NCBI RefSeq assembly: GCF_003217475.1
Contig: NZ_QJSP01000001.1
Coordinates: forward strand, 62,001 to 126,000
Source of the DNA: Williamsia limnetica
Lineage (GTDB): Bacteria > Actinomycetota > Actinomycetes > Mycobacteriales > Mycobacteriaceae
Length of the DNA: 64,000 nucleotides
Direction: 5' to 3'
This document shows, one piece after another, positions 12,035 to 59,751 of this stretch; position 1 is the stretch's first letter, and each line of letters starts with the position of its first letter. The position numbers and the translations under genes were made by a program. The notes beneath the pieces were generated by a model. That model did no database searches. It was not told the origin of the DNA and saw only the letters and a list, made by a program, of their open reading frames with translations.

Positions 12035-12078
12035 CCTGCACGACGCTTAGGCGGGATCCATGTCCCGCGACGTCAAGG

Positions 12079-12097
12079 TTAGGTTAGGCTACGCACT
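12079..12097 (+). promoter_or_regulatory. IdeR/DtxR-type iron box with overlapping -10
   Basis: TTAGGTTAGGCTACGCACT agrees with the IdeR consensus TTAGGTTAGGCTAACCTAA at 14 of 19 positions, including the first 13 in a row. TAGGCT at 12085-12090 fits an actinobacterial -10 element, which would put the transcript start at the GTG of 12099. Iron-loaded repressor bound here would block the siderophore-transport operon. Confidence 0.75.
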
Positions 12098-39920: not shown

Positions 39921-39962
39921 GTCGCCGCGATCGGTCTAGACTGGCCGTGCGTCGCAGCGACC

Positions 39963-40155
39963 CGGGAGAGAGCCACACCAGATGTGGCCGCCGAAGGAGC
40001 AATACCTCTCCGTCAAACTCTCAGGCATCAAGGACCGTGTCGTCGTCGGCGTCTCTGGAGAGTGACGGCTTTGCCGTCCGCCCATGGTGAAAGGCCGCGA
40101 CCGAGCGGCTGAATCTCTCAGGCGTCCACCACGAGGTGGATAGGACAGAGGGGGA
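39963..40155 (+). ncRNA. Tandem glycine riboswitch upstream of gcvP
   Basis: The first aptamer has CGGGAGAGAGCC at the 5' end, the conserved core GCCGCCGAAGGAGCAA, CTCTCAGGCATCAAGGACCG and closes with CTCTGGAGAG near 40061. The second aptamer (about 40075-40155) repeats the core with GTGAAAGGCCGCGACCGAGCGGCTGAATCTCTCAGGCGTCC (quoted in part) and ends AGGACAGAGGGGG. Tandem aptamers followed by a glycine-cleavage gene are the classic arrangement. Glycine should raise gcvP expression. Confidence 0.9.
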
Positions 40156-54863: not shown

Positions 54864-55271
54864 CTACGGATCGGTGATGCGGTGTGGCGCGCGATGTGTT
54901 CCACGTGCCGATTCCAGTTCGTCGAGAGCGCGCCGCAGAGCATCTGCCTCGTCGGCGCCGACGCGTCCCACAAATGATACGAGTGCTGCCTGCCGTGAAC
55001 CCGCCTCATCGGCCTCGCTGAGGGCGTCCACCATCAGACTCGCCACGAGGTGTTCCCGTGGATGTGTCGCCGAGTACCGGTGGGCGCGATCGTCGCGCAA
55101 CTGGGTCACGAGGTTCTTCTTGGCCAAACGCTGCAGGACGGTCATCACGGTCGTATATGCCAGTTCGCGGTCAGCGGACAGTGCGGCGTGGACCTGACGC
55201 ACCGTCAGCGGTTCGTCGGACGACCACAAATTGTCCATCACCGCTCGCTCGAGCTCACCCAACCCGTTCAT
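54864..55271 (-). CDS. blaI: BlaI/MecI-family transcriptional repressor
   Basis: 135 residues. The winged helix is ELERAVMDNLWSSDEPLTVRQVHAALSADRELAYTTVMTVLQRLAKKNLV (in parts), followed by a C-terminal dimerisation helix. It pairs with the adjacent M56 peptidase. Start at 55271 is preferred over 55322 because it is the typical short N-terminus (MNGLGELE). In M. tuberculosis the homologue Rv1846c represses respiratory and lactamase genes. Upstream is a divergent iron-responsive promoter for a small RNA. Confidence 0.88.
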   Translation of the reverse strand: MNGLGELERAVMDNLWSSDEPLTVRQVHAALSADRELAYTTVMTVLQRLAKKNLVTQLRDDRAHRYSATHPREHLVASLMVDALSEADEAGSRQAALVSFVGRVGADEADALRRALDELESARGTHRAPHRITDP

Positions 55272-55341
55272 TCTTCTCACTTTACGTTTCTTCTCATCAA
55301 ACACCTCAACGCGCATCGCCATTGGTTTTCTTCCGAAGTAG

Positions 55342-55370
55342 TTGACAGGTTGGTAAGGCTAGCCTACATT
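55342..55370 (+). promoter_or_regulatory. Sigma-A-type promoter with IdeR/DtxR-type box inside
   Basis: TTGACA (55342-55347), 17 bases, then TACATT (55365-55370) make a consensus -35/-10 pair. The 19-base element at 55349-55367 (GTTGGTAAGGCTAGCCTAC) agrees with the IdeR consensus at 14 of 19 positions and has the perfect dyad AGGCTAGCCT. Repressor bound here would cover the -10. Confidence 0.75.
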
Positions 55371-55376
55371 CATACA

Positions 55377-55466
55377 TACGCGGACCGAGTGAGTGTCCTG
55401 AGGGCTGCAGAGACCCCCGGTCCACGCCACAGCAGGCCCCACCGATCAGGTGGGGCCTGCTGAGTC
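55377..55466 (+). ncRNA. Candidate iron-regulated small RNA (MrsI-like)
   Basis: The promoter at 55342 would start transcription near 55377. GGACCG (55382-55387) pairs with CGGTCC (55418-55423), closing a loop with AGGG and CCCC. Then CAGCAGGCCCCACC (55430-55443) pairs perfectly with GGTGGGGCCTGCTG (55449-55462) around GATCA, a strong terminator. No open reading frame with a ribosome site fits in about 90 nt. In M. tuberculosis the iron-sparing small RNA MrsI (ncRv11846) lies in the same gap between Rv1846c (blaI) and Rv1847 and is IdeR-controlled. Synteny and structure support homology; seed pairing was not tested. Confidence 0.65.
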
Positions 55467-55578: not shown

Positions 55579-56010
55579 GTGACCGAGAAAATCGATGTCA
55601 GCAACAGCGATGCGAGCGACTGGACCGCGCGGGGTTTCGACGCCGAACTCGGTCTGCAGTACGCAGAGGTGACCCCCGATGCCGTCCGGGCCGAATTCAC
55701 CGTGACCGACAAGCTCCTGCAGCCGTTCGGGATCGTGCACGGCGGTGTCTACTGTGCGGTGATCGAATCGGTGGCGAGCATCTCCGGCCAGGTCTGGTTG
55801 GTGGCCAACGTCACCCCTGATGGCCACGTCGTAGGGGTGAACAACAGCACCGACTTCCTGCGCGCCGTGCAGACAGGCCACATGACTGCACAGTCCAAGC
55901 CCATCCACCGCGGCCGCCGTCAGCAGTTGTGGGAGGTCGACATCAGCGATGAGAACGGCAAACTGATCGCTCAGGGCCGCGTCCGGCTGCAAAATATCAC
56001 CGAGAGCTGA
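55579..56010 (+). CDS. PaaI-type hotdog-fold thioesterase (Rv1847-like)
   Basis: 143 residues with the hotdog pattern LGLQYAEVTPDAVRAEFTV, then PFGIVHGGVYCAVIESVASI with the conserved HGG loop, and GVNNSTDFLRAV. Such enzymes hydrolyse acyl-CoA or hydroxyaryl-CoA thioesters. Start GTG 55579 follows GAGGAG by nine bases; the frame upstream to 55525 is less likely. In M. tuberculosis this gene directly precedes ureA; here an aldolase-like gene is inserted between them. Confidence 0.85.
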   Translation: MTEKIDVSNSDASDWTARGFDAELGLQYAEVTPDAVRAEFTVTDKLLQPFGIVHGGVYCAVIESVASISGQVWLVANVTPDGHVVGVNNSTDFLRAVQTGHMTAQSKPIHRGRRQQLWEVDISDENGKLIAQGRVRLQNITES

Positions 56011-58029: not shown

Positions 58030-59751
58030 ATGGCATCACTGAGTCGCGAGCGATACGCAGAGCTCTTCGGCCCCACCGTCGGCGATCGAATCCGGCTGGC
58101 GGACACCAATCTTCTGATCGAGGTCACCGACGATCTCTCCGGCGGTCCCGGCAAGGCCGGCGAGGAGGCCGTGTTCGGCGGAGGGAAGGTCATCCGCGAG
58201 TCGATGGGCCAGGGGCGGGCCACCCGGGCCGAAGGGTCGCCGGACACCGTCATCACGGGGATCGTGATCCTCGACCACTGGGGGATCATCAAGGCCGACC
58301 TCGGGATCCGTGACGGCCGTATCGTTGCGCTCGGCAAGGCAGGCAACCCCGACACCATGGACGGGGTCCACCCGGACCTGGTCATCGGGCCGTCCACCGA
58401 GATCATCGCCGGCAACGGCAAGATCGTCACCGCCGGTGGTATCGACTGCCACGTCCACTTCATCTGCCCCCAGATCATGGACGAGGCACTCGGCAACGGG
58501 ATCACCACCCTGATCGGTGGCGGAACCGGGCCTGCCGAGGGCAGCAAGGCGACGACGGTGACACCGGGTGCGTGGCACCTCGCGTCGATGCTGCAGGCCA
58601 CTGACCACTGGCCGCTGAACATCGCGTTGCTGGGCAAGGGAAACACGGTGAATCCCGCCTCCATGCACGAACAATTACTCGCCGGGGCTTCGGGCTTCAA
58701 ACTCCACGAGGATTGGGGGAGTACGCCGGCCGCCATCGATGCCTGCCTGCGGGTGGCCGACGAAACCGGCGTTCAGGTGGCGCTGCACTCGGACACCCTC
58801 AACGAGGCCGGATTCGTCGAACAAACCCTGGGAGCCATTGCCGGACGCGGCATCCACGCGTACCACACCGAGGGTGCAGGCGGCGGCCACGCACCGGACA
58901 TCATCACGGTGGCGGGGTATGCGAATGTGCTGCCGAGTTCGACGAACCCGACCCGCCCGCACACGGTGAACACACTGGACGAGCACCTGGACATGTTGAT
59001 GGTCTGTCATCACCTCAATCCCAGTGTGCCCGAGGATCTGGCGTTCGCGGAGAGCCGGATCAGGCCGTCGACGATTGCCGCGGAGGATCTTCTGCACGAT
59101 ATCGGAGCGATCTCGATGATCGGATCCGATGCGCAGGCGATGGGTCGGATCGGCGAAGTGGTGTTGCGGACGTGGCAGACGGCGCACGTGATGAAAGCCC
59201 GCCGCGGTGGGTTGGCCGGCGACGGCGCCGCCGACAATCAGCGAGCACAGCGCTACGTGGCGAAATACACCATCTGCCCGGCCATTGCACACGGACTCGA
59301 TGACGAGATCGGGTCGATCGAGGTCGGCAAACTGGCCGACCTCGTGCTGTGGGAGCCCGCGTTCTTCGGTATTCGTGCGCACGCTGTCATCAAAGGCGGT
59401 GCTATCGCGTGGGCGGCGATGGGCGACGCCAACGCCTCCATCCCGACTCCGCAGCCGTCGTTGCCACGCCCGATGTTCGGTGCCTCGCCCCGACTAGCCG
59501 CCGCGACCTCGTTGAGTTTCGTTGCGCAGCAGGCTCTGGACGACGGGTTGGCGGATCGGCTGGGACTCGACCGGCGCCTGTCTGCGGTGAAGAACGTGCG
59601 TCGCGTGGGCAAGTCGGACATGCCGAACAACGACGCTCAACCCGAGATCACCGTGGACCCGGACAGTTTCACGGTGACCATCGATGGCGAGGTGTGGGAT
59701 CAGCAGCCTGCAACCTCACTGCCGATGGCCCAGCGCTACTTCATGTTCTGA
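58030..59751 (+). CDS. ureC: Urease alpha subunit (catalytic)
   Basis: 573 residues with the full nickel site: HVHFICPQ, the carbamylated lysine K224 in [30 protein letters not shown] and the flap [13 protein letters not shown] with the catalytic histidine. It shares a stop/start base with ureF. It is the enzyme's active subunit, needing UreDFG for Ni2+ and CO2 insertion. No urea transporter is seen in the window. Confidence 0.97.

Follow-up and report, generated by a model that had tools for sequence, protein, structure and literature searches.

Genomic context and promoter

The stretch of Williamsia limnetica DNA analysed here (64 kb; contig NZ_QJSP01000001.1, positions 62,001 to 126,000 of the forward strand; hereafter the window) carries a candidate small RNA (sRNA) in the gap between a blaI-type repressor gene and a thioesterase gene. 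A promoter overlapped by an IdeR-like dyad precedes the candidate, and a terminator-like hairpin ends it. The features of the locus, numbered from the first base of the window, are as follows.

54864..55322, minus strand: blaI-type repressor gene, divergent neighbour (Pfam PF03965)
55342..55370, plus strand: sigma-70-type promoter, TTGACA-N17-TACATT (10/12 of consensus)
55349..55367, plus strand: IdeR-like dyad GTTGGTAAGGCTAGCCTAC, which overlaps the -10 region (14/19 of the IdeR consensus)
55377..55466, plus strand: predicted small RNA, about 90 nt, with a start deduced from the position of the -10 element
55382..55423, plus strand: 5' hairpin with outer stem GGACCG/CGGUCC, inner stem and apical stem CUG/CAG
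55401..55407, plus strand: 7-nt apical loop A-GGGCUG (unpaired probability 0.89-0.98)
55402..55407, plus strand: GGGCUG, proposed seed
55430..55462, plus strand: terminator-like hairpin, perfect 14 bp (55430-55443 with 55449-55462)
55579..56010, plus strand: thioesterase gene, downstream, in an Rv1847-like position (Pfam PF03061)

The promoter is the sole sigma-70-like site across the 3 kb scanned, where shuffled sequences give 0.2. The IdeR-like dyad, scored against a 19-nt consensus, is unexceptional alone: mono-shuffled windows give 1.7 matches of at least 13/19 on one strand, and a degenerate-pattern scan finds two overlapping matches here against 0.7 by chance, with 14 of 100 shuffles reaching two. 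The dyad is noteworthy because it is conserved, not for its single-site score; a box of at least 12/19 is kept in 161 of 162 unique sRNA upstream regions, compared to 1.9% of mono-shuffles. A first-pass annotation of this DNA had described a promoter containing an IdeR-type dyad, and the promoter match, the box score and the conservation across upstream regions all agree with that description.

Structure and conservation of the predicted RNA

The predicted fold has an energy of -52.8 kcal/mol (z -4.8), and none of 200 shuffles was equally good. Across 49 aligned copies, 92.1% of the alignment cells are paired in the structure listed above, and 17 of its 28 pairs show changes on both sides (6-10 in slid controls), amounting to 148 double-change cells versus 10-29 in the same controls. 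These double changes fall mostly in the terminator-like hairpin (13 of 13 aligned pairs), with one pair in the outer stem and three in the inner and apical stems together. The first-pass annotation had likewise noted a 5' stem-loop. RNAalifold's own 5' structure, in which three pairs use the loop, was set aside; the listed structure has double changes there. GGGCTG is invariant and the preceding A nearly so, while the pairs closing this invariant loop change in two copies (L036, L053). Open reading frames (ORFs) overlapping the locus arise mechanically, and what is conserved is a set of stems around an unvarying loop, consistent with the earlier view that no protein is encoded. That annotation had also taken the hairpin for the end of the unit. 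The perfect 14-bp hairpin is indeed present, but its tail GAGTCTTCC is T-poor and provides no U-tail, and a terminator scan did not list it.

Distribution of the family

Homologues of the RNA occur in most sampled genera of the family to which Williamsia belongs in the Genome Taxonomy Database (GTDB). A blastn search with 146 bases found copies in 91 of 151 genomes of this family. A covariance model, R2, built from 49 diverse copies, matches the window at 55379-55462 (G000:C1:117379-117462), and at E<0.001 it matches 116 of the 151 genomes in 21 of 31 genera (120 genomes at E<=0.05, the extra four being weak). In Mycobacterium, R2 matched 258 of 297 genomes, and blastn with the M. simulans copy matched 339 of 396. 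An order-wide draw gave R2 matches in 35 of 249 genomes, all within the GTDB family; seven more family genomes had no match, and none of the approximately 207 sampled genomes of other families of the order, assigned to them by list order, was matched. Copies drawn from at least 118 stretches come from Mycobacterium, Mycolicibacterium, Mycobacteroides, Rhodococcus, Prescottella, Gordonia, Nocardia, Lolliginicoccus, Aldersonia, Hoyosella and Antrihabitans as well as Williamsia; an own-locus repeat (L002) and a terminator-only match (L056) were removed before the core survey. The exact core pattern was found in no viral contig searched. One genome of genus g27 holds two copies, L057 (G145:C7:210202-213261) and L058, the second of them diverged (61.8 vs 88.3 bits with R2). 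Two 3.3-Mb Mycobacterium genomes, G216 (L201/L227) and G256 (L225), carry decayed copies in which 5 and 6 of 29 core bases are changed, and the G216 copy has no terminator hairpin by eye.

The surroundings of the RNA are partly conserved. A thioesterase gene, recognised by sequence resemblance, lies downstream in 11 of 12 loci examined, at a variable distance from the sRNA core (91-210 nt). An additional ORF separates blaI from the sRNA in mycobacteria other than M. simulans (L084) and in many further genera; it is absent from that species and from the window. In 9 of the 12 loci (L121, L144, L113, L139, L078, L100, L154, L114, L099) this ORF, about 230-260 aa long, ends 37-102 nt before the core; neither Pfam, scanned with two of the proteins, nor NCBIfam, scanned with one, yielded a match. 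An IdeR-like box (12-17 of 19) is also present at 140-190 nt from blaI in seven mycobacterial loci where the distance between blaI and the sRNA is wide.

The conserved order of sRNA and thioesterase gene raises the question of whether the element acts in cis. As a 5' untranslated region of the thioesterase gene, its hairpins would serve as an attenuator or start-site control under IdeR, and the missing U-tail would permit read-through. We consider this improbable. An invariant short loop on varying stems is typical of a trans-acting seed, the spacing to the thioesterase gene varies, the loop complement occurs in the bfrA leaders of sRNA-bearing genomes (see below), and for mycobacteria the accessible passages of PMC11188477 describe MrsI as an sRNA in its own right. 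A dual element, mostly an independent sRNA whose iron-controlled read-through also drives the thioesterase gene, would reconcile the conserved gene order with the evidence for action in trans and would make use of the weak terminator tail in the window. It is a somewhat better candidate, although still an unlikely one given the strong 14-bp hairpin.

Probable identity with MrsI

The locus very probably encodes a Williamsia representative of the MrsI family of trans-acting, iron-sparing sRNAs. The accessible passages of PMC8628891, PMC11188477 and PMC12101431 place M. tuberculosis MrsI (ncRv11846, H37Rv 2096766-2096867, plus strand) in the blaI-Rv1847 gap and describe an RNA of about 100 nt with an IdeR site near its start, a 3' terminator and the targets bfrA, hypF and fprA; those of PMC12101431 and PMC11188477 add that the seed is 6 nt long and the apical loop 7 nt, and those of PMC7029489 report induction in low iron. 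Comparison with M. tuberculosis was made through these published descriptions rather than by alignment, and no match at H37Rv 2096766-2096867 stood among the matches listed for Mycobacterium, either with R2 or by blastn with the M. simulans copy. The M. simulans locus has the same order of blaI, sRNA and thioesterase gene as the window, with a urease-alpha-like ORF further on. The original MrsI study is reportedly that of Gerrick et al. 2018.

The first-pass annotation had noted that MrsI sits in the same gap and had suggested homology outside Mycobacterium. The published descriptions and the M. simulans gene order agree with the former, and R2 matches in 21 of 31 genera uphold the latter, the Williamsia copy sharing descent with mycobacterial copies at this locus by both blastn and R2. 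The covariance search that it had proposed was made with R2, since no Rfam family matched. Rfam 15 holds no family that matches the locus at gathering score (the best sub-threshold score is 18.7 bits vs a cut-off of 70), and at four loci bearing relatives' copies no Rfam match falls on the sRNA, with matches elsewhere in three of the four.

The bfrA leader as a proposed target

The leader of the genome's own bacterioferritin gene, bfrA (G000 C8:178409; TIGR00754), contains CAGCCCTC at -50 and CAGCCC at -65, and among 1328 leaders no other has two copies of CAGCCC, the complement of the loop sequence GGGCUG. This set of leaders spans 2.06 of the 6.35 Mb of this genome, and its genes come from a simple purpose-made caller. 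The comparison across genomes was confined to bacterioferritins of an MQGDP-like type and comprises 67 sRNA-bearing genomes (59 Mycobacterium, 6 Williamsia and 2 Aldersonia). These derive from 13 initial leaders, 29 loci from the top 30 of a later search (the 30th being G264, in which the terminator is lost) and 25 regions hand-picked from the results of that search before their sequence was seen. CAGCCC occurs in the bfrA leader of 58 of the 67 sRNA-bearing genomes, 27 of which have two or more, compared to none of 13 sRNA-less genomes and neither of two genomes with a decayed sRNA; the one terminator-lost genome does have it. The antisense word GGGCTG is found in none of the 67 and in one of the 13, and the control word AGCCCC in 13 of 67 vs 3 of 13. 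One search gave 30 bfr leaders; 17 of them, which belong to other Bfr types or, in one case, were mis-started, are left out of the counts above (67, 13 and 3).

A tree of BlaI contains three losses of the sRNA, each coinciding with absence of the site, and one sRNA-bearing genome without the site (G152). Five of the 13 sRNA-less genomes lie outside this tree (G154, G172, G178, G227 and G280), all but G227 being less complete assemblies. The co-occurrence of site and sRNA is therefore suggestive, because there are only about three independent losses.

Many of the bfrA sites could themselves be presented in a loop. N+CAGCCC falls in a loop of exactly 7 nt, closed by a stem of at least 4 bp, at 30 of 89 bfrA sites (28 of 58 site-bearing leaders), whereas with shuffled flanks the mean is 1.6 and the maximum 7. 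The 30 displayed sites use 14 distinct 4-bp stems, one hairpin accounting for 10 of those sites; other loop registers give 0-5, except that the 9-nt register gives 23, which are the same stems less one pair. Across 2.06 Mb of genome background, 40 of 1530 CAGCCC words are displayed, and in other leaders none of 44 sites is, a control that leaves out leaders with less than 25 nt of intergenic space (e.g., sufB) and edge-near sites. In minimum-energy folds the site lies within a hairpin loop in 35 of the 58 leaders. The sRNA loop A+GGGCUG matches this target-loop geometry. On balance we lean, by a narrow margin of confidence, towards MrsI-family RNAs recognising their targets by kissing, in which a 7-nt A-GGGCUG loop would meet a 7-nt N-CAGCCC loop on unrelated stems.

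Several results weigh against bfrA recognition through this seed. Nine of the 67 sRNA-bearing genomes have no CAGCCC in the bfrA leader, and two control words are distributed much like the site itself (CCCAGC 20/67 vs 0/13; CCAGCC, which overlaps the site, 39/67 vs 0/13). With only three independent losses, a pair test cannot reach 0.05. Among other Bfr types (e.g., in Rhodococcus, Gordonia and Hoyosella) CAGCCC occurs in 4 of 14 sRNA-bearing genomes, and in none of the remaining three dropped leaders, of which one was mis-started and one has a weak model match. There is no 4-bp display in 30 of the 58 site-bearing leaders. Seed 8-mers are not enriched over the 1328 leaders (15 sense and 17 antisense, shuffled mean 15.7), and plain duplex energy ranks bfrA only 12th to 89th among them. 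This ranking agrees with a remark in the accessible part of PMC12395582 that, by binding-energy programs, confirmed MrsI targets are not predicted to bind favourably, a failure that short loop-loop contacts would explain. The first-pass annotation had proposed a search of loop sequences against the 5' ends of iron-using mRNAs; the bfrA leader holds the seed complement, and the general leader screen gives no enrichment.

The bfrA correspondence might be a phylogenetic accident, the three sRNA-less lineages simply having other leaders. The small number of losses, with a single pair on well-supported branches and no possibility of a sign test reaching 0.05, is compatible with this, as are the unenriched 8-mers and some rearranged control words that are likewise absent from the 13 sRNA-less leaders. 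We nevertheless give such an accident little credence: it does not account for a register-specific display that uses 14 distinct 4-bp stems and greatly exceeds the shuffles, for the strand bias of CAGCCC over GGGCTG or for two sites unique among 1328 leaders, and bfrA is a published MrsI target in the accessible passages of PMC8628891, PMC11188477 and PMC7029489.

Further candidate targets

Seven displayed words lie near gene starts in the stretches, two of them at iron-related genes (sufB and bfrA) and the other five at genes that appear by eye to encode ordinary metabolic enzymes, not iron-related ones. The sufB site (TIGR01980), 41 nt before the start, has an 8-bp stem, the longest of the seven, and lies within the end of the upstream gene, taken from its sequence as sufR. 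By the display criterion this points to sufB as a further predicted target. A hemerythrin-domain gene (G000 C2:303557, L425) has GCCCTCAG in its leader at -33, and the same word stands at -33 to -36 in four close Williamsia, including this genome. In four other Williamsia the leader has CAGCCC at -46, and one CAGCCC was seen across the six other genera viewed. The hemerythrin mRNA is, on these motifs, a weak candidate. A whole-genome pattern of CAGCCCTC followed by GGA and RTG was tried as a target finder and rejected, with 31 matches vs 21 for the reversed pattern; among 28 of its loci viewed, bfrA and perhaps one 134-aa protein resembled true leaders.

Other features of the window

A second pair of IdeR-like boxes (14/19 and 13/19) at 12074-12097 perhaps belongs to the siderophore operon named in the first-pass annotation. 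A glycine riboswitch aptamer lies at 39953-40047 (Rfam RF00504, 63.4 bits). The Rfam family 5_ureB_sRNA (RF02514) matches 58191-58483, antisense within the urease-alpha ORF, as it does in L084, L089 and L121; conservation of the urease coding sequence may account for these matches.

Proposed mechanism and comparison with known systems

In the presence of iron, IdeR would occupy the dyad that overlaps the -10 region, blocking transcription. When iron is absent, the RNA of about 90 nt would be made, ending at the 14-bp hairpin, and its 5' hairpin would offer the loop A-GGGCUG, whose seed GGGCUG may pair with CAGCCC of the bfrA mRNA leader. Such pairing would lower bfrA expression and keep iron out of storage. 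Where the bfrA site itself lies in a 7-nt loop, as it does in many species, the first contact may be a kissing interaction of 6 bp.

Compared with MrsI of M. tuberculosis and M. smegmatis, as described in the accessible passages of the sources cited above, the Williamsia RNA shares the gap, the plus strand, the size, the IdeR-like site, the terminator hairpin, the 6-nt seed, the 7-nt apical loop and the seed complement in the bfrA leader. It differs in that the family reaches Williamsia and 20 other of the 31 sampled genera. Target sites displayed in hairpins, and hence kissing, are absent from those passages. No report of MrsI outside mycobacteria was found in the passages of open-access papers that our search covered. 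On this reading MrsI changes from a mycobacterial RNA to a family-wide one with a fixed, searchable seed, open to testing in harmless soil genera.

The ColE1 RNA I/RNA II pair exemplifies loop-loop antisense RNAs, which are cis-encoded plasmid pairs. The likeness lies in two 7-nt loops as first contact; in contrast, one chromosomal sRNA would here address unlinked mRNAs. To our knowledge, neither Hfq nor ProQ has been found in mycobacteria. Kissing, if true, would provide a chaperone-free recognition code in bacteria of this sort, and hairpin-displayed sites offer a testable answer to how the sRNAs of G+C-rich bacteria with no known chaperone choose targets that binding energy does not predict. 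RyhB, PrrF, FsrA and IsrR, according to the accessible part of PMC9410917, are likewise iron-repressed sRNAs that lower iron-using proteins, but RyhB and PrrF are aided by Hfq and FsrA by FbpABC, and their repressor is Fur, in place of which IdeR would act here.
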